A stretch of 64,000 bases of DNA from NCBI RefSeq assembly GCF_946151045.1, contig NZ_OX267714.1, forward strand, positions 558,001 through 622,000, in the 5' to 3' direction. Of this stretch, positions 7,784 to 45,790 are shown piece by piece; the first letter of the stretch is position 1; every line of letters starts with the position of its first letter. The position numbers and the translations under genes are program-made. The stretch is from Mammaliicoccus sp. Marseille-Q6498 (lineage in GTDB: Bacteria > Bacillota > Bacilli > Staphylococcales > Staphylococcaceae). The notes beneath the pieces are model-generated. The model was not told where the DNA came from, made no database searches, and saw nothing but the letters and a program-made list of their open reading frames with translations.

Positions 7784-8431
7784 TTATTCACCCTTTAATT
7801 TAAGTACTGGTTCTTTATAATCTTCATGTTTAAAGAAATAAGACCCTGCTACTAAAACATCTGCTCCTTTATCTTTACATAATTGCGATGTTTGTTCATT
7901 AATGCCGCCATCTACTTCTATTTCGTAGTTTAATTGATTTGTTTTTCTATATTCGTTTAACCACTCTATTTTTTTTAATGTAGAGTCTATAAATGATTGA
8001 CCGCCAAATCCTGGATTGACCGTCATGATTAGAACGAAATCTACATCTCCAAGTACAGCTGAAATGTTCTCTACTGGCGTTCCTGGGTTTATAACAACAC
8101 CAGCTAATTTCCCATGAGATTTAATTTGTTGAATTGCTCGATGAATATGATTTGTAGCCTCATAATGAACAGATACCATATCACTTCCCGCTTCACAAAA
8201 TAAATCAATCATCTGTTCTGGATTTTCTATCATTAAATGCGTATCAATCGTCATATCGGTTACTTTTCTTAAAGATTCTAAAATGGGCAAGCCAATCGAA
8301 ATGTTTGGTACAAACTGTCCATCCATTACATCAAAATGTAAAATATCCGCTCCAGATTCACGAACTCTGTCCACTTCTTCCTTTAATACTGAAAAATCAC
8401 ATGCTAATAATGAAGGTGCAACTTTAACCAT
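7784..8431 (-). CDS. rpe: Ribulose-phosphate 3-epimerase
   Basis: Pentose phosphate pathway TIM-barrel enzyme interconverting ribulose 5-phosphate and xylulose 5-phosphate. Motifs HFDVMDGQFVPN, MTVNPGFGGQ and EVDGGIN carry the metal-binding His/Asp residues and the phosphate-binding loop. 215 residues. Its ATG overlaps the rsgA stop by one base (TAATG), so it is coupled to rsgA. Confidence 0.96.
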   Translation of the reverse strand: MVKVAPSLLACDFSVLKEEVDRVRESGADILHFDVMDGQFVPNISIGLPILESLRKVTDMTIDTHLMIENPEQMIDLFCEAGSDMVSVHYEATNHIHRAIQQIKSHGKLAGVVINPGTPVENISAVLGDVDFVLIMTVNPGFGGQSFIDSTLKKIEWLNEYRKTNQLNYEIEVDGGINEQTSQLCKDKGADVLVAGSYFFKHEDYKEPVLKLKGE

Positions 8432-9306
8432 TAATATCTTACCTTTCTATTTTGAATTTCTTCAAATAATGTTAAATAGTGTTTATATCTTAAATTATAA
8501 AAGTCATTTTCTTCAATCAATAATTTAACTGCACAGTGTGGTTCATTTATATGTGTGCAATTTCTAAATTTACATTCAGACTTAACCGCTTCAAACTCAG
8601 GGAATAAATCCGCTAATTCTTCTTTTTCAATATGAGAAAAGTCTAATGCGCTAAATCCAGGTGTATCTGCTAAAAATCCATGTTCCATTTCAAATAACTC
8701 AACATGTCTTGTCGTATGTTTCCCTCTATTTAATGCTTTTGATATTTTGTTCGTTTCAATATTCAAGTCTTTAAATAACCTATTCATAATAGTAGACTTT
8801 CCTACTCCTGATTGACCGCTTAATACGATAATCCCATTAATAAGTGGTGTTATAGTGAGCGATAAATCATCATCATTACCTACAAACAATGTATCATAAC
8901 CGACTACTTTATAATGATTTAATAATTGTTCTACATGCTTGATTTGTGCCTCTGTTGCTAAGTCTTTCTTCGTTATACAAATAATAGGTGTAATATTGTA
9001 TGAGTGTACGACAACAAGGAAGCGATCTAGTAGCTGTTGACTAATAATAGGTTCAACAGCACTCATCACGACTATCACTTTATCTATATTAGATACAGGC
9101 GGTCTGAGTAACAAGTTATCTCTTTCATGTATATTATGAATATATCCGCCCGTTTCATTTTCCACTTGAAAATCGACAATATCTCCAACTACTGGAGAAG
9201 TTTTCTTTTTTCGAAATAACCCTCTTGCTTTTGCAATATATACGCCGTCATCAGTCAAAACTGAATAATCACCGCTAATCGATTTAATAATTCGACCAGT
9301 TTTCAA
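8431..9306 (-). CDS. rsgA: Ribosome small subunit-dependent GTPase A
   Basis: Circularly permuted GTPase that acts in late 30S subunit maturation. An N-terminal OB fold is followed by G4 (TKKDL, about 112-116), then G1 GQSGVGKST (164-172), G3 DTPG, and a C-terminal zinc motif with Cys245, Cys250, His252 and Cys258. The start is TTG at 9306 after AGTAGGTG; the sequence from MKTGRI matches S. aureus. First gene of rsgA-rpe-thiN, with an extended -10 promoter in the 54-base gap before it. Confidence 0.96.
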   Translation of the reverse strand: MKTGRIIKSISGDYSVLTDDGVYIAKARGLFRKKKTSPVVGDIVDFQVENETGGYIHNIHERDNLLLRPPVSNIDKVIVVMSAVEPIISQQLLDRFLVVVHSYNITPIICITKKDLATEAQIKHVEQLLNHYKVVGYDTLFVGNDDDLSLTITPLINGIIVLSGQSGVGKSTIMNRLFKDLNIETNKISKALNRGKHTTRHVELFEMEHGFLADTPGFSALDFSHIEKEELADLFPEFEAVKSECKFRNCTHINEPHCAVKLLIEENDFYNLRYKHYLTLFEEIQNRKVRY

Positions 9307-9360: not shown

Positions 9361-10746
9361 TTATCGATTTTGATTAAATAATATCGTCACTTCTGTACCT
9401 TCATCAATTTCACTTATGAAATTCATTTCAGCTTTATGATGATCGATGATAGATTCTACAATCGATAAACCAAGTCCATTACTATCTGAATGAACATTAT
9501 GTGATTGGTCACCTTTATAAAAACGATCTTTAACTTGATTCAATTGTTCAGGTGTCATGCCTTTACCTTCATCAGAAATAGAAACTTGTACTTTATCATC
9601 TTTATTTAAAACAACAATTTGAATCATACTATATTCAGGCGAGTATTTAATCGCATTATTTATTATATTATAGAATGCTTGATATAACAGTTTATTATTA
9701 CCTTTAATTGTATATTCTTCAATATCAAAAATGATTGAAATGTTTTTATCATCGATTAAATAATTTAAATTTCGTACGACTTCTTTTAATACTTTACTTA
9801 TTTCTACATCTTCATTAAATGAAAGATGTTCACTATTATCTAATTCAGAAAGTAATAGCAACTGCTTCGTTAAATTACTTAAACGATATGCTCATCCATA
9901 TATATCTTGAATGATTTCTTTTCGGTTTTCTTCGTTTCGTTCATATTCAAGTTGTCTTAATAAACTTAAAATAGACTGCAATGGAGATTTTATTTCATGA
10001 GATACATTTTGAACAAATGAATTTCTCATCGTATCTAATTGTTTCAACTCATCTCTCATTTTAATAAAACGATGTTGAAGAATACCAATTTCATCTTCTC
10101 TCGTAACTTTAATATCAACATCAAAGTCACCTTGACCTAATGATTCCGTTGTTTTCATCAGTCTTCTTATTGGATTAGCTAAAGAATAACTTGATAACAA
10201 TACAAATGATAGCGATATAACGACAAGTAACACGAGTAATATGACAAGGAATACTCTAAATTCTCCAAGAAGTGCACCTACACTTGGTCGTAAAAACAAT
10301 GCATAGTCTGAACCTTCATGTTTAATTTTAATACCTACTGTGTTTCTTGTTTCATTATCAAAAAATCCTGTTATAAAAATATTAAATGGACGTTCTTTTA
10401 TACCATGATAATCATGACCTTCTAATACTTTTTTTACATCATTATCTTTTAAATTAAATTTTCTAAAGTCATCACCATAATATTTAGGTTGTCTTTTATC
10501 GTCATATAAAATAGCTTGATAATGTAAGTCACCTAAATGCTTTAAATATGTATTCAGTGGTACATTTTTGTCATCATCAGTAAAAGACTGAATTTCTTTT
10601 AATGTTTTCATCACTTTATGGTCATTTTTTTGCTTCAAATCAATATGATAATACATGTTTGTAAGTATAAATCCCAAAATAGAACTTACGACCATCACAA
10701 CCATTGTGTAAATTGTAATACGTTGAGCAAGGGACTTAAACTTCAT
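9361..10746 (-). pseudogene. hssS: Heme sensor histidine kinase HssS, interrupted by an in-frame TGA
   Basis: Membrane sensor kinase of the HssRS heme-stress system. Read from ATG 10746 (AAGGTGG nine bases upstream), it has two transmembrane segments (near residues 10-30 and 165-190), an extracellular sensor, a HAMP-like linker, the phospho-acceptor box VSHEIKSP, and an ATPase domain with N and G boxes (NNAIKYS, SNGLGLSIVESI). Reading through gives 461 codons, near the 457 residues of S. aureus HssS. Codon 285 (9892-9894) is TGA, in the helix between H-box and ATPase (DIYG-stop-AYRLSNLT); the frame is the same on both sides. As read, the product loses its kinase domain. A sequencing error or recent inactivation are both possible. 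Confidence 0.85.
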
Positions 10747-11416
10747 GTTCAAGCACCACCTTATAACCTACACCTCTTACTGTTTTAATGATGACATCAC
10801 TTTCTAATTTTTCTAGACGTTTTCTAAGTCGTTTAATATGGACATCAAGTGTTCTCTCGTCACCTTCAAAATCCACACCCCATACCACTTCGATTATACG
10901 TTCTCTTTGTAGTACTTTATCTTTATTTCTCATTAAATAATCTAGTAAAGTAAATTCTTTTTTAGGTAATAGCATCGTTTTTTGATCTATTTTGATTTCC
11001 ATATCTACAGAATTTACAATTGTATTACCAAGTTTAAGCTCATTAGACGAATTAATTTTAAATCTACGCAAGACAGCTTTAATTCTAAAAATAAGTTCCT
11101 TCATTTCAAATGGTTTCGTTACATAATCATCTGTACCAGATAGAAAAGCATTTTCTTTATCACTTAATTCATCTCGTGCAGTTAACATGATAACCGGTAT
11201 GTCAAAACTATCTTTAAGCATCTGACAAAGTTCAAATCCATTAATACCTGGCATCATAATATCTACCACTGCTAAATCTATATATTGGTGTTCCACAACT
11301 TCTAAAGCTTCTTCACCACTTAAACTTGTTATAACATGCATATTTTCTCGTTCTAATTCTTTTTTAACATCGTTTAAAATAAAACGATCATCGTCAACTA
11401 CTAAACACGTAATCAT
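10736..11416 (-). CDS. hssR: Heme response regulator HssR (OmpR/PhoB family)
   Basis: DNA-binding response regulator: receiver domain (1-120) with acidic pocket DDD, phospho-acceptor Asp in AVVDIMMPG, and Lys in DYVTKPFE. The C-terminal winged helix ends in TVRGVGYKV. The whole length resembles S. aureus HssR (GTDDYVTKPF, EGDERT, DVHIKRLRKRL). It overlaps hssS by 11 bases. In S. aureus it activates the hrtAB heme exporter next door; no ABC transporter gene occurs anywhere in this window, so any target lies elsewhere. The start at 11416 has a GAGGTGATAAC ribosome binding site. Confidence 0.88.
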   Translation of the reverse strand: MITCLVVDDDRFILNDVKKELERENMHVITSLSGEEALEVVEHQYIDLAVVDIMMPGINGFELCQMLKDSFDIPVIMLTARDELSDKENAFLSGTDDYVTKPFEMKELIFRIKAVLRRFKINSSNELKLGNTIVNSVDMEIKIDQKTMLLPKKEFTLLDYLMRNKDKVLQRERIIEVVWGVDFEGDERTLDVHIKRLRKRLEKLESDVIIKTVRGVGYKVVLEHEV

Positions 11417-11502: not shown

Positions 11503-11541
11503 TAAAAAAACAGACTAGAAATTAAAATTTCCAGTCTGTTT
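11503..11541 (-). terminator. Rho-independent terminator of the oleT-like gene
   Basis: Stem AAACAGACT (11508-11516) with AGTCTGTTT (11533-11541), extended after one mismatch by four more pairs. On the minus strand it is followed by TTTTTTT. It separates the P450 transcript from hssRS. Confidence 0.85.
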
Positions 11542-11567
11542 TAACATTAATCATTTATTCTATTAAA

Positions 11568-12857
11568 TTAAACTGATTCAACGTTACGATTAACTAATGC
11601 ATTAACATTTTCGATAATCGTACCACTTACTACACGTCCAGGTAATTTATTAAGATTAACTGATAAGTCTTGGTCTTTTTTAACATCATATGAAATATTT
11701 CTTGCAAAGTATTTCATTGATTCTTCCATAATTATGATTGTCATCCATTCTCCGGCACAACGGTGATTTGTATTATAATCTCCGCCACCTTGAGGAATTA
11801 AATCGAATGGACTTCCATCCCAATCGCTGAAACGGTTTGGATAGAATCTTTCTGGGTTCTCCCAAAGTCCTTCATTATGCAATGTTCCATAAATATCTAA
11901 TACTAAGAAAGTATCTTTTTCGATCGTATAACCATCAAATTCAATATCCACTGCTGCTTTACCTGGTAAGAATGGTACGAATGGATAGAATCTTCTTACT
12001 TCTTGTACGAATTTATAAGCATAATCATCTTCATTATTAAATACGCGTTCTGCTTCACCTGGATAGTCATGTAATGCTTTAACGCCAAAGCTTACGAAAC
12101 GGTTGATAGCTACTAATGGACGTACAACGTTCATTAAATCAATTGCACATAATCTTGCATCCATTAAGTTACCTTCGAAATCTTCCCAATGACTAAATTC
12201 ATATAACGCTGTACCTTGAGGCGGAGTTAATTTACCTTCACGGACTGCAATGATTTGATTTTCAAGGAATGTTTCTACACGGGCTCTTGCTTGTTTAGCT
12301 TCTTTGTATCCTTTAAATGCTGTACCTAAATTTTTAAATGAATCAATCATTGTATCCATGTCGTCTGCACAACTTTCAATTTCTTCAGGAGATGCAATAA
12401 TACCTGCCCATCTGAAACCTACTTTTGTAAGTAATACGATAGATTCTTTATATACATTTACTTCGTCCATTCTTTCCATACGTTCAGTATTCATGAACCA
12501 ATGGCTACGAGTAAGTTCTCTTAAATATTCTAAGTTTTCTTCAGTCATTAATGACATAAATAGTGCTTTACGATCGATATGTTTTTTTCCACCTGTCGTA
12601 TGTATCGCACCTTTACCGAATAAAGTATTTACAACACGTTTAGGTAAAGTACCTTGTCTTTCAATTAAATCGTTATTATAGAACACTTCAGCAGCTTCTT
12701 TACCACTAAAAATAACTGCTCTACGTCCACCTAAAACTTTTGTTTCAAAAATGTTTGAATCAAATTTTTCTAGTCTATTTGGTATAAATTTATACCCTTC
12801 TTTTAATACTTTAAATGTATTATCAAGTCCGCGATCTTTTGGTATTCTGTTACCCAT
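11568..12857 (-). CDS. CYP152-family cytochrome P450, OleT-like fatty acid decarboxylase/peroxygenase
   Basis: Hydrogen-peroxide-driven P450 acting on free fatty acids. The heme ligand is Cys367 in NHRCAGEW, and Arg246 in RPLVAINRF should bind the substrate carboxylate. The position that is Gln in the hydroxylase P450-BSbeta is His here (His86 in FGKGAIHT), as in Jeotgalicoccus OleT (His85), which makes terminal alkenes. Long stretches (LPKRVVNTLFGKGAIH, KALFMSLMTE, SPFDLIPQGGGDY) match OleT closely. ATG 12857 is preferred over 12866 because AGGGGG is 11 bases before it and only two before the other. It has no redox partner gene and its own terminator. Substrate and product are inferred. Confidence 0.88.
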   Translation of the reverse strand: MGNRIPKDRGLDNTFKVLKEGYKFIPNRLEKFDSNIFETKVLGGRRAVIFSGKEAAEVFYNNDLIERQGTLPKRVVNTLFGKGAIHTTGGKKHIDRKALFMSLMTEENLEYLRELTRSHWFMNTERMERMDEVNVYKESIVLLTKVGFRWAGIIASPEEIESCADDMDTMIDSFKNLGTAFKGYKEAKQARARVETFLENQIIAVREGKLTPPQGTALYEFSHWEDFEGNLMDARLCAIDLMNVVRPLVAINRFVSFGVKALHDYPGEAERVFNNEDDYAYKFVQEVRRFYPFVPFLPGKAAVDIEFDGYTIEKDTFLVLDIYGTLHNEGLWENPERFYPNRFSDWDGSPFDLIPQGGGDYNTNHRCAGEWMTIIIMEESMKYFARNISYDVKKDQDLSVNLNKLPGRVVSGTIIENVNALVNRNVESV

Positions 12858-12932
12858 AAAAATCATTGCCCCCTAAAATATTGTAAATTTCATATACTTT
12901 CATATTATTTCATTTTTTAAAGAAATAATCAA

Positions 12933-14129
12933 TTAACAACTATATTCTATCGTAAATTTTATGTCTAAATCAACAATCGTATGTCTTTTTGACCATTCAA
13001 TAAGTTCATTTGGATAAATAACTTCATCTTGAATCGTCTTTTTCACATTTTCAACCGGAAAAGTTAAAACAAAACGTTGATCAATTATTTCATCTACTAA
13101 ATCTAGAAAAGATAAATTACCTTTCGAAGGTCTACCTAAAACATTCACAATTTTTGATTTTGAAACTTTATTTACTAACCATTCTGCAGCCATTTTTGTA
13201 TCTTTATCAATAAGAACTTTAATACATTCAAAACGACTCAATCCAGTAAATTCAATCTTATTGTCATCAAAATAACGCCAATTTCCAACAGGTTGATCTA
13301 TAACATTTTGATAAAAGGCTTGTTCATTCATCTCGTTAGCTTCTTTAAATAATCGATCTAATTTCTTTTTATATAATACCTTATGTCTTTCACGATTTAT
13401 TTCCACTTGCGCATCATTCGTTAAAACCGTTTCCTCAGCACCAATTTCATAAAAATATGGAATTAGAAATTCAGCAATATTTAGTTTATCAAAACTCGCT
13501 TTTCTCATATCGAATATTAAATGACCAACTTTAGAATCCACTTTTGATAAATCATATAACGCATCTACAGCCTGATCAAACGTTATATTACCTACCATCT
13601 CCACAATAGGCACATCATCTCTCACATATACATTAACTTTCGCTTCATCATCAACCTTATACTGTTTCAATTCAAAGTGATACGTCTGATTACCACGCTT
13701 AACCTCCACTTCATTTTGAAAAGTAAGAATATGATGCCACTCCTCACGATGAAAAGGCTCATCATTTAATAAACGACTATAACGTTTTCTACAATAGTCA
13801 ATCTCATCTCCAGATAAAGAAACGATCTCATCCCCAACAACAAAACGAATATCATCAAGCACCTCAGTCACAACTAAAGAATCCTTCGTTGCCCTAACTT
13901 TAATACCAACCTGTCTCTCAGGTACCTTCAGTGACTTTAACTTAGCATTCACTAAACCAACATCATAAAAATAATTATTTATAACTTCAATAAACACACT
14001 ATCCGTCAACTGTGGAGAGGTAACTATATTTTTATATTCATTATAAATATCTAATTTAGAATCAACAGAATCAATCGCATGTTCAACCTGTTTATGTATA
14101 TATTCATACACCGATACATAAGGAAGCAT
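12933..14129 (-). CDS. S41 (C-terminal processing protease)-like protein lacking the catalytic serine
   Basis: 398 residues with no signal peptide or membrane segment. A helical N-terminus is followed by a PDZ-like region (about 73-155, with DIRFVVGDEIVSLSGDEI) and an S41-like fold (about 170-350, VGHLIFDMRK and CIKVLIDKDTKMAAEW). Active S41 enzymes carry a TASASE-type motif where this protein reads TKMAAE (311-316), so the nucleophile is replaced. A lysine at 336 in GRPSKGN may correspond to the catalytic Lys. It is probably a non-catalytic relative, perhaps a binding protein. GAGGTGAATAT precedes the ATG; promoter at 14156-14184. It lies upstream of the P450 gene with no terminator between them. 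Confidence 0.55.
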   Translation of the reverse strand: MLPYVSVYEYIHKQVEHAIDSVDSKLDIYNEYKNIVTSPQLTDSVFIEVINNYFYDVGLVNAKLKSLKVPERQVGIKVRATKDSLVVTEVLDDIRFVVGDEIVSLSGDEIDYCRKRYSRLLNDEPFHREEWHHILTFQNEVEVKRGNQTYHFELKQYKVDDEAKVNVYVRDDVPIVEMVGNITFDQAVDALYDLSKVDSKVGHLIFDMRKASFDKLNIAEFLIPYFYEIGAEETVLTNDAQVEINRERHKVLYKKKLDRLFKEANEMNEQAFYQNVIDQPVGNWRYFDDNKIEFTGLSRFECIKVLIDKDTKMAAEWLVNKVSKSKIVNVLGRPSKGNLSFLDLVDEIIDQRFVLTFPVENVKKTIQDEVIYPNELIEWSKRHTIVDLDIKFTIEYSC

Positions 14130-14270: not shown

Positions 14271-16256
14271 TTAAAAATCATCATAATCTATCGTATTACT
14301 TTCTATTTCTTTACCATCTACTTCAACTCGATATTCCGCTGATTCGTCTTGTGGAATCGTAAAGTTAATACTTTTAGTTGTATCTTTTTTTATAGTAAAT
14401 GTTTGTGATGCTTTAGAAATATCATGTGATTTGTCTTTAACAAATATTTCTACTTTTTGTCCTTTTTTATCTGAACCGGTATAAGGAATATAGACAGTTT
14501 GTGTATATGTTTTATCTTCCACACTATCTTTACTGTCGTCAGAACTTTTATCTGGTTTTGATTTATCTTTTTTAGAATCTGATTTTTCTTTTTTACCATT
14601 AGAAACGTCAAAGTAAATCGTTGAATCTACTGGTAATTGAACATTTTTAATTGATTGTTTCAATATAGTACCTTCGTCTTTATCACTATCTACATCTTTA
14701 GTTTCAACAGTGAATCCTAAATCTTCTAATTCAGATCTAGCATTATCTATATTTTCACCAGTAAAGTCTTTAACAAATACTTGTTGTACACCAACGGATT
14801 TAGTTAAAATAATTGTCGTATCTTTTGGTACTACTTTACTACCTGGTTCAATATTTTGATTTATGATACTACCTTTTTCAGCTTTATCATATTGTTCTTT
14901 AATACGAACAGAGTTAAAGCCATGTTTTTCAAGTTGTTTTTTAATATCATCTGCAGATTTACCAACGTAGTCTTCTATTGTAAAGGTCTTTACACCTTTA
15001 GAAATTACAAGATCTACTTTCGACATTTCTTTTATTTTAGTTCCAACTTTAGGCGTTACTTTCATCACTTCGCCTTCTTTAAAGCTATTACTATAATCTT
15101 CTGTTATTTTACCTTTACGCAATCCTTTTTCATCTAGTAAAGCTATCGCTTCTCCTCTAGATTTACCAAGTAAATTTGGCACGTCTTCGTATTTTGGTGC
15201 AGTAATGGCAAATCCTATTGCGCCGACTAACATGAAGAGTAACAGTATTGGAACGAATATGACTAACCATTTACTCTTTTTACGTTTTGGTTCATTTGAA
15301 TGATGATTGACTTGTCCGTTTGAACCATTACCATTAACAGGTACTGGCTTTGTCTTTTCTTCATTTTCAGATGCTGTCATAATTGGTATCGTTTTAGTAT
15401 CTGAAGATGAATCAAACATTGGTGATTCATCTTTTCTTTCTTCATCTAATGCCGTTAGTAAATCGTAATACATTTCATTTGTATCATGATATCGCAAAGC
15501 TTTTTCTTTTTGTGTTGCTTTCATAATTACATTCTCAATACTTTGAGGAATCGAAGGTCTTTCTTCCTTGATTGACGGTATTGGATCTTGTATATGTTTA
15601 ATTGCAACACTAACTGGCGTTTCCCCATTAAATGGTGGGTGTCCCGTTAACAATTCAAAAAGTACAATACCTATTGAATATATATCAGACGATTCGTCAG
15701 TTGATAAACCTTTTGCTTGTTCTGGTGATAAATATTGGACTGAACCCATAACATGGTTCGTTTCAGTCAATGCTGTTTCACTAAGGGCGCGAGCAATACC
15801 AAAGTCTAATATTTTTAATGTACCATCTTTAGTCATTAAAATATTTTGAGGCTTTATATCTCTATGAATAATACGATGGTGATGTGCATGGGCTATACCC
15901 TTTAAAATTTGAAGTGTCATATCTACTGCTTCTTTAGCAGATAATTTACCTTCTTTATTTAAATATTCTTTCAAAGTTGGACCATCTATATATTCCATTA
16001 CTAAGTAATAACAATTATCGTCTTCTTCAACATCAAGTACATTAACAATATTGCTATGACTTAAAATAGTTGTGTTTTGAACTTCTCTTTCAAAGCGTTC
16101 AACAGTTTTTTCTTTTTCATATGGCGGTATATTTATAACTTTTACAGCTACTTTACGATCTAAAATATTATCTTTAGCTAAATAAACATTACTCATACCA
16201 CCGCCACCTAAATACTTCACAAATTCATAGCGACCGGCGATTATACGACCTATCAT
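14271..16256 (-). CDS. prkC: Serine/threonine protein kinase with PASTA repeats (PrkC/Stk1)
   Basis: Eukaryotic-type membrane kinase that senses muropeptides or lipid II and regulates cell wall growth and division. The kinase domain spans residues 1-270: glycine loop GGGGMSNVY, Lys39, catalytic HRDIKPQN (131-138), DFG (151-153). A charged linker leads to one transmembrane helix (about 330-352) and three extracellular PASTA repeats (from about 355 to 565), then a Lys/Asp-rich linker and a C-terminal beta domain. Its start overlaps the stp stop by four bases, the usual kinase-phosphatase pair. Confidence 0.97.
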   Translation of the reverse strand: MIGRIIAGRYEFVKYLGGGGMSNVYLAKDNILDRKVAVKVINIPPYEKEKTVERFEREVQNTTILSHSNIVNVLDVEEDDNCYYLVMEYIDGPTLKEYLNKEGKLSAKEAVDMTLQILKGIAHAHHHRIIHRDIKPQNILMTKDGTLKILDFGIARALSETALTETNHVMGSVQYLSPEQAKGLSTDESSDIYSIGIVLFELLTGHPPFNGETPVSVAIKHIQDPIPSIKEERPSIPQSIENVIMKATQKEKALRYHDTNEMYYDLLTALDEERKDESPMFDSSSDTKTIPIMTASENEEKTKPVPVNGNGSNGQVNHHSNEPKRKKSKWLVIFVPILLLFMLVGAIGFAITAPKYEDVPNLLGKSRGEAIALLDEKGLRKGKITEDYSNSFKEGEVMKVTPKVGTKIKEMSKVDLVISKGVKTFTIEDYVGKSADDIKKQLEKHGFNSVRIKEQYDKAEKGSIINQNIEPGSKVVPKDTTIILTKSVGVQQVFVKDFTGENIDNARSELEDLGFTVETKDVDSDKDEGTILKQSIKNVQLPVDSTIYFDVSNGKKEKSDSKKDKSKPDKSSDDSKDSVEDKTYTQTVYIPYTGSDKKGQKVEIFVKDKSHDISKASQTFTIKKDTTKSINFTIPQDESAEYRVEVDGKEIESNTIDYDDF

Positions 16257-22449: not shown

Positions 22450-23649
22450 TTAAAAATACGCTTCTGATAATTTATACAATATCGGTCGTTTACCAACTTT
22501 TTCGATATACCCTAAGTCTAATAAATCATTTAATATTTTTCGAATGGTTTTATCTGTTAAGTTAAGATAACTTTCTATTTGTTGAACTGTAATATGTTCC
22601 TCAATTGAGTAATAATAAAATTGTGCCATGATAAATACTGTATCTTTATGTGTTTGGCTTAAATTTTGATCTTTATTAATGATGTTTATAGCATAATCCA
22701 ATTGTGTTTTTTTAGCTTTTAATTCTTCGATTAAGAGTTCTTGCCCATCTTTAATAAATGCTAAAAAATGCTCTATAAAATAATTAAGCTCTCCTTTGTT
22801 CATTGCACTATTCGTCTTATCAAAAATATCATAGTAAACTTTATTATTTGATTCTATTCCTCTCGAAAGAGATATTGCTGTTAATTGGTCATAAGTTTCG
22901 TTTAAATATAAACTTGAAATAAAACGTGAAGTTCTTCCATTACCATCATAGAAAGGATGAATATAACCAAAATAATAATGCGCAATCGCTATTTTTATGA
23001 TTGGCTCAATATCATCTTGATTATTAAGAAAGTTAAGTAATTCTTCAACTTTTTCTACTATTAAATTATGTGGCATAATCCCTTCATGTAACACTCTATT
23101 TGTAGAACTCATAACTTTCACTGCTTCTTCTCTGAATAATGATCCTTCTATTTTATTCATTTCTGAAATTTCACCAGCCGTAATTTCATCATATATTGTT
23201 CTTACATCTTTAGCATTTCGTGGCAATTTATTAGTCGAGTATAAAATTTTCATATAGGCTTTCAACATACTTTCAAACCTTGGAGATTTTTGATTGTTTT
23301 CTTTCATTACTTTCATACTTTTTGCTATTTCTTTTTTTGTACTCTTAACGTTTTCAATTTGATTTGAAAAATAAAGTTCATTAACAACCATTTCATCTTG
23401 AAGTGATTCTTTAGCACCTATTGGTAATGGAAAACTGAGCTCACGTAACAATGCATTACACTTTTCTATTTGTACCACCAAAGACATTATAGATAAAGTC
23501 GGTATGAAGTATAGTTTATAATTTTCATTTGATTTCTTAGGTTTAATACTCAAATCTAATACTTTCGCATTTGGTGAATGTACTCTTTTTTTATATTCAC
23601 GTTCCCATGAATCTGGAAATTTATAAAAGAATTTATACATAAACTCCAT
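22450..23649 (-). CDS. Fic family protein, class II (N-terminal inhibitory helix)
   Basis: Likely AMP-transferase or other nucleotidyl-transferase acting on protein hydroxyls. The complete catalytic motif HPFYDGNGRTSR is at residues 231-242. An SNQIEN sequence at 95-100 fits the S/T-x-x-x-E-G/N inhibitory motif of class II Fic proteins, so activity should be self-restrained. The C-terminus (about 350-399) is a winged helix (LTDKTIRKILNDL). ATG 23649 follows TTAGGAG at nine bases and is preferred over an upstream TTG. Promoter at 23681-23709. No separate antitoxin gene is seen. Target and role unknown; it could act in stress response or phage defence. Confidence 0.87.
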   Translation of the reverse strand: MEFMYKFFYKFPDSWEREYKKRVHSPNAKVLDLSIKPKKSNENYKLYFIPTLSIMSLVVQIEKCNALLRELSFPLPIGAKESLQDEMVVNELYFSNQIENVKSTKKEIAKSMKVMKENNQKSPRFESMLKAYMKILYSTNKLPRNAKDVRTIYDEITAGEISEMNKIEGSLFREEAVKVMSSTNRVLHEGIMPHNLIVEKVEELLNFLNNQDDIEPIIKIAIAHYYFGYIHPFYDGNGRTSRFISSLYLNETYDQLTAISLSRGIESNNKVYYDIFDKTNSAMNKGELNYFIEHFLAFIKDGQELLIEELKAKKTQLDYAINIINKDQNLSQTHKDTVFIMAQFYYYSIEEHITVQQIESYLNLTDKTIRKILNDLLDLGYIEKVGKRPILYKLSEAYF

Positions 23650-23678
23650 ATAACCAACTCCTAAACGGTAATTTTTGA

Positions 23679-24038
23679 ATATTTTACCATTTAAGCGGAC
23701 TTCAAACAATAAATAAATCTAATTTATCAGATGATGGAATAGCCCTACTTACATATTCAGAATTAAATTCAGGTGATCTGAGAGTTGAAGGTATGCAAGC
23801 TTCTCAAATTAAAAATGAAGATGGTTTACAAACAGCTTATGGGATGGGGATACCAAACGAAATTGATACTACTGAAATCAAAAGAATATATTTTAAAATT
23901 TTATACTTGCCTAGCGCATTCGGTGAAAACAGAATTTATCACGATACTTTCAACTATATTAAGAGAGATACCGAAAACGAAATAGCTAAAATTTCTTTCC
24001 CATTACTTTTAATGAAAAGAGGGGCTAAAAATGAGTAA
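23679..24038 (+). pseudogene. 3' fragment of an unidentified gene, truncated at the Fic promoter
   Basis: The frame is open from 23679 to the TAA at 24038 but has no credible start before ATG 23793. That ATG gives 81 residues and has only a poorly spaced GAAGGT. The coding sense of the upstream part (SNLSDDGIALLTYSELNSGD) suggests that the reading frame once continued further left and was cut where Fic now begins. The stop overlaps the next gene by eight bases, so the two were one operon. I do not recognise the family. Confidence 0.5.
23681..23709 (-). promoter_or_regulatory. Promoter of the Fic gene
   Basis: On the minus strand TTGTTT (23709-23704), 17-base spacer, TAAAAT (23686-23681), about 32 bases before the ATG. 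It lies within the open frame of the truncated gene on the other strand. Confidence 0.55.
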
Positions 24039-45662: not shown

Positions 45663-45762
45663 AAAAAAATACTCACGTCTTTACAAAGACATGAGTATAT
45701 ACTGGTACCATTAAACTGGTCCACACGTACATATTATGTCTTGTCAGCCTCTCTGGACTGTC
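45663..45762 (-). promoter_or_regulatory. PyrR-binding attenuator in the pyrR leader
   Basis: On the minus strand CAGTCCAGAGAGGCTGACAA (45761-45742) is a near-canonical PyrR binding loop. It is followed by an antiterminator-capable segment around ACCAGT repeats (45720-45700) and a terminator: ACTCA plus GTCTTT (45671-45682) pairs with AAAGAC plus TGAGT (45685-45696), then T7. Confidence 0.88.
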
Positions 45763-45790
45763 TGTTAAAGACGCTTAAATTGTTAAATCT

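Follow-up and report, generated by a model that had tools for sequence, protein, structure and literature searches.

The window, a stretch of 64,000 nucleotides from Mammaliicoccus sp. Marseille-Q6498, contains the gene of a 429-aa OleT-type (CYP152L) P450 (11568..12857, minus strand), predicted from its ORF, homology and tree position to be a fatty-acid decarboxylase. The product is very probably an H2O2-dependent fatty-acid peroxygenase of the CYP152L group that acts mainly as a decarboxylase. This reading is favoured by the 93.2% identity over the full length to PDB 9rxh and 65.6% to OleTJE (CYP152L1 from Jeotgalicoccus, PDB 4l40), by the retained pocket residues, the clade, the score against the CypC profile and the dN/dS of 0.045-0.079 relative to the seven other Mammaliicoccus copies. 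The gene is under strong purifying selection, and is the sole Pfam p450 match in the genome at E <= 0.001. Beyond a known enzyme type, our analysis adds a common chromosomal address of CYP152L and a probable mislabelling of the published enzyme OleTSA.

The reading frame is intact. Its first ATG would place the gene at 12866..11568 on the minus strand, whereas the Met at 12857, the start given in the original prediction, yields a protein beginning MGNRIPKD and 429 codons long. The latter is the better start, because the Shine-Dalgarno-like AGGGGG upstream of it (12869..12874, minus strand) lies 11 nt from this Met and merely 2 nt from the upstream ATG, and because all seven other Mammaliicoccus genomes match the P450 from residue 1 of this version. 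Directly 3' of the gene and before the next one, a terminator-like hairpin of 16 pairs is followed by a T run (11507..11542, minus strand); such sites number three between 8300 and 14500, where shuffling predicts 1.7.

Numbered from 12857, F80, H86, I171, S173, F174, L177, R246, P247 and C367 of the window P450 correspond to F79, H85, I170, S172, F173, L176, R245, P246 and C365 of OleTJE. His86, Arg246 and Cys367, singled out earlier from the sequence, align exactly, and the close similarity to OleT noted at the same time holds, with 274/418 residues identical to OleTJE and 400/429 to 9rxh. The phmmer match to OleTJE reaches 645 bits, far beyond chance. The hallmarks of CYP152 peroxygenases, the heme-ligand Cys367 and the carboxylate-binding Arg246-Pro247, are present, as are the counterparts of the four OleTJE residues by which OleT enzymes are recognized in PMC6452516 (F79, H85, I170 and R245, here F80, H86, I171 and R246). 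The entry 9rxh, named only 'Cytochrome P450' and likewise 429 aa long, has the same catalytic residues. It is identical at 428/429 positions to L044, the P450 of another Mammaliicoccus genome (G019), and a search of the open-licence literature for the term 9RXH found no paper. The differences lie in the pocket. Both 9rxh and OleTSA (CYP152L7, WP_049319149; PMC6452516), the latter compared by its four named residues only, carry Thr47 and Ile177 instead of Ala47 and Leu177, while OleTSA shares Val319 and Leu405 with the window P450 in identical numbering. OleTJE keeps the catalytic residues and differs in Phe46 and Ala317, which stand in place of Ala47 and Val319. Ala47 matches neither OleTSA (Thr) nor OleTJE (Phe), and the natural Ala47/Leu177 pair provides a variant with which the pocket could readily be studied.

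Homology gives good support to the prediction that the enzyme uses H2O2 to decarboxylate mid-chain fatty acids to 1-alkenes and carries out some β-hydroxylation as well. Arg246 would bind a free fatty acid by its carboxylate above the heme, whose ligand is Cys367. Following the mechanism in the literature, Compound I would be made from H2O2 and would abstract a hydrogen from Cβ, after which mainly CO2 would be lost, giving the C(n-1) 1-alkene. Competing hydroxylation would, as in the literature, leave the β-hydroxy acid as the main by-product and the α-hydroxy acid as a minor one. The presumed preference for mid-chain acids is taken from published orthologs.

Assayed relatives agree with this chemistry in the main and vary in its extent. 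OleTSA converts myristic acid to 84.0% 1-tridecene, 15.4% β-hydroxy and 0.6% α-hydroxy product, with a decarboxylation/hydroxylation ratio of 4.0 on C14 and 2.6 on C12 (PMC6452516). With lauric acid, a truncated form of CYP-Sm46 from S. massiliensis yields 66.1% 1-undecene (PMC5588734), and OleTLA from Lacicoccus is mainly a decarboxylase (PMC12284513). The 646-aa open frame of the P450 of S. massiliensis raised the possibility of an intein, which was rejected because the insert consists of consecutive N. The variation, together with an Ala47 unlike both OleTSA and OleTJE, counts against the decarboxylase reading. The selectivity of OleTSA reverses on C20, and OleTMC from Macrococcus is cited as preferring the hydroxylation of long-chain acids (PMC6452516), in line with an enzyme of mixed activity that under physiological conditions makes mainly hydroxy fatty acids and forms alkenes as a side product on natural longer or branched substrates. 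We regard this alternative as unlikely, since OleTSA is decarboxylative on both C12 and C14 and Leu177 or its equivalent promotes decarboxylation in two enzymes. I177L was the only tested OleTSA mutation that raised 1-undecene formation from lauric acid (PMC6452516), and L176I in OleTJE lowers the decarboxylation/hydroxylation ratio, from which Leu was concluded to promote decarboxylation (PMC12284513); the window P450 carries Leu177 naturally. This Leu appears helpful but dispensable, because 9jqm, which we infer to be OleTLA, has Ile at the corresponding position and OleTLA still mainly decarboxylates. The 9jqm sequence is identical to one of our compared P450s (L089) over 421/421 aligned residues.

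Phylogeny supports the decarboxylase assignment. In a CYP152 tree of 73 rows (76 aligned rows minus three duplicates), the window P450 falls in the 60-row OleT clade (SH-aLRT 100), and in a more careful tree of 28 rows chosen from these it belongs to an 18-row OleT/CYP152L clade with support 100/100. The hydroxylases P450-BSβ (CYP152A1, 1izo) and CYP152K6 (6fyj) belong to the same CYP152 family and share the Arg-Pro pair and the Cys, but have Gln at position 85 of OleTJE and form a separate clade. Placing the window P450 with these two and four Gln85 paralogs is rejected by the AU test on the 28 rows (p-AU 1.8e-6). The phylogenetic check proposed with the original prediction thus puts the enzyme outside the hydroxylase clade. 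Its score against the CypC fatty-acid peroxygenase profile (NCBIfam NF053744), 495.4 bits, is below the curated equivalog cut-off of 600 bits. A CypC/P450-BSβ-type hydroxylase bearing the His by coincidence is therefore very improbable, even though five divergent proteins (L009, L010 and L102-L104) also have His85 and L009, the one member of this group that was scanned, scores just above the cut-off at 601.1 bits. Since the window P450 is of the OleT/CYP152L type and lies outside the hydroxylase clade, decarboxylation would be its expected main chemistry. On this point the original call stands; its argument from the histidine is weaker than claimed.

Among the 76 aligned rows, His at OleTJE position 85 is found in every OleT-type row and in the five divergent proteins; these share 37-42% identity with the window P450 and form a group of their own beside the OleT clade. 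Gln is present in L078, L105-L109, P450-BSβ and CYP152K6. In the 28-row tree the His-bearing rows occupy one side of a branch with support 98/94, so His85 may be an inherited state. Published mutations point both ways. Introducing His85 and Ile170 into the hydroxylases CYP-Aa162 and P450BSβ enhances decarboxylation (PMC5588734), and H85 is counted among the residues reported as crucial (PMC12284513), whereas the product profile of OleTJE H85Q stays nearly the same (PMC5377825). With this mutant and the divergent His-bearing group, the residue is weak evidence by itself and does not mark a decarboxylase, as had been assumed. His86 contributes less to the functional prediction than do the sequence background as a whole and the assayed orthologs. 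Nor is such an enzyme as notable in a staphylococcal-type bacterium as first thought, because CYP152L decarboxylases ascribed to staphylococci have been described in papers from at least 2017 onwards (PMC5588734, PMC6452516). Decarboxylases of this kind are already published from staphylococci, Jeotgalicoccus, Salinicoccus and Lacicoccus, and the window enzyme is one more OleT.

The comparison also bears on the origin of OleTSA, published as a Staphylococcus aureus enzyme with the named residues T47, I177, V319 and L405 (PMC6452516). Among the 76 rows, this combination in the same numbering occurs only in 9rxh and in six Mammaliicoccus orthologs of the window P450 (L043, L044, L045, L047, L048 and L069). 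One row from family f2 (L082) has the four residues in another numbering, and the remaining two Mammaliicoccus rows differ, the window by A47 and L177 and L046 at the position of V319. S. aureus is not known to have a P450. On the basis of the four residues, OleTSA is probably a Mammaliicoccus protein with a mislabelled source organism, which suggests that the recorded origin of one characterized enzyme is wrong. The printed identities of OleTSA are 69% to OleTJE and 64% to CYP-Sm46 (PMC6452516), while the six Mammaliicoccus rows and 9rxh give 64.6-65.3% and 65.3-69.3%, respectively. In view of this disagreement, either the printed figures are swapped or the residue match is imperfect.

The P450 locus lies between two conserved boundary genes, pknB/stk1 for a PASTA-domain Ser/Thr kinase upstream (14271..16256, minus strand) and rsgA downstream (8431..9306, minus strand). 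Together with the window locus we compared 56 further CYP152L loci, 57 in all, drawn from 71 carrier genomes of three families. In 56 of the 57, pknB is found no more than 2.7 kb upstream and in the same orientation; L053, the exception, is at a contig start. Of the 37 CYP152L genomes in the family of Mammaliicoccus and Staphylococcus, 35 have rsgA at a distance of 185-6492 bp downstream, again in the same orientation. The other two are G010, where the contig ends, and G019, whose chromosome is rearranged 3' of the P450, with rsgA on the opposite strand at a distance of about 760 kb. In G017 (L048) two overlapping ORFs make up a split rsgA. Two other families, with 34 such genomes, have rsgA downstream in 20/20 loci examined. 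In the rows nearest to OleTJE (L084-L088), the gene likewise sits between pknB and rsgA. We also inspected the pknB-rsgA junctions of 12 of the 71 CYP152L-negative Staphylococcus genomes. In 11 of these the two genes are on the same strand with no ORF of at least 100 aa between them, separated by 112-288 bp in ten and 835 bp in one; the twelfth (L111) has a reverse-strand ORF inside a gap of 1562 bp. Neither boundary gene was found in the short stretches around the distant CYP152 copies of 34-38% identity (nine intact, L078 and L102-L109, and the broken L080).

Between the P450 and rsgA of the window are the genes of an OmpR-type response regulator (10736..11416, minus strand) and a histidine kinase (9361..10752, minus strand). 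The latter contains an in-frame stop, leaving two ORFs of 286 and 166 aa, and is a single ORF of 460-471 aa in all six other Mammaliicoccus loci with the two-component pair at this site. In seven of the eight Mammaliicoccus loci (not L044) this pair comes immediately after the P450, which is seen in no other genus compared; five of six g3 loci have a response regulator of 50-52% identity farther downstream. An operon of the P450 and the two-component system as a general feature was rejected, given the hairpin between them and the restriction of the pair to Mammaliicoccus loci. Upstream, a 398-aa protein (12933..14129, minus strand) separates the P450 from pknB. It has no Pfam or NCBIfam match, and a sequence-profile search returned no significant match, the best being unrelated (E 0.15) and IRBP having E 0.93. 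Its AlphaFold model (mean pLDDT 55.7, pTM 0.37) matches S41-type processing peptidases among the best 50 of 400 structural matches (best E 6.3e-8, TM-scores 0.24-0.34); the model being poor, this is only a hint of a possible remote S41-peptidase-like fold. Homologues precede the P450 in 25/57 CYP152L loci, comprising all those of Mammaliicoccus, g2, g3, g4 and f2, and in none of the 13 Staphylococcus or 19 f4 loci. Elsewhere in the window lie a Fic-domain protein (PF02661, 419 aa; 22450-23709, minus strand) and a PyrR-binding RNA element (Rfam RF00515, 55.8 bits; 45663-45775, minus strand).

Of 157 genomes from the order, 71 carry CYP152L, counted by hand as matches of at least 61% identity. 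Within the family it is found in Mammaliicoccus (8/8), g2 (9/9), g3, which includes Macrococcus brunensis (6/6), g4 (1/1) and Staphylococcus (g5, 13/84); in the other families it is found in f2 (1/1) and f4 (33/33) and is absent from f3 (0/15). Family f4, which includes Aliicoccus, we take to be Salinicoccaceae. S. aureus is not known to carry CYP152L and would be among the Staphylococcus losses. Three other genomes (G051, G069 and G083) have matches at 22-38% identity only. A second CYP152 gene of 34-38% identity, in Gln85 and His85 versions and broken in L080, occurs in 17/33 f4 genomes and a few Staphylococcus. The distribution, the 73-row gene tree, which keeps g1, g2, g3 and g5 each together, and the low dN/dS speak for vertical descent, for a function kept over time and for loss from most Staphylococcus. 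Recent acquisition by horizontal transfer is highly improbable, since the tree holds the genera together, pknB keeps its place across three families, and the 72,556 plasmid records searched contain no match of at least 60% identity, although 118 of them carry distant CYP152-like genes, all below 60%. We lean towards a view in which OleT-type alkene synthesis would be ancestral in at least three Staphylococcales families, fixed beside pknB, kept under strong purifying selection and lost in most Staphylococcus, OleTSA really belonging to Mammaliicoccus. The claim stops short of the whole order because f3 lacks the gene.

The cell might use the P450 to dispose of free fatty acids along with peroxide, which is a guess. 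Oleate hydratase (PF06100) alternating with CYP152L was considered as a sign of such disposal and rejected, as there is no association within Staphylococcus (Fisher p 0.72). Full-length matches, tallied by hand from the per-genome table with one short fragment (G084) scored negative, occur in 2/13 CYP152L-positive and 18/71 CYP152L-negative genomes of this genus. None is found in 8/8 Mammaliicoccus and 33/33 f4 genomes, where even the best matches have E-values above 1e-6, a contrast confounded by ancestry. By title and abstract start, the open-licence literature yielded no paper on alkene formation by living Mammaliicoccus, on this enzyme under Mammaliicoccus and cytochrome P450, or on the position of CYP152 genes in staphylococci; Mammaliicoccus, alkene and P450 together gave no paper in that literature, and the text consulted on the physiological role of OleT held no answer. 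No long-chain 1-alkene is among the S. sciuri volatiles named in the available text of PMC6955855. If our reading is true, 1-alkene formation would be a long-kept function, perhaps the disposal of fatty acids and H2O2, and not a Jeotgalicoccus curiosity. The shared gene position offers a clean comparative system, with genera that all have the gene set against a genus mostly without it, for the question of what bacteria use terminal-alkene formation for.
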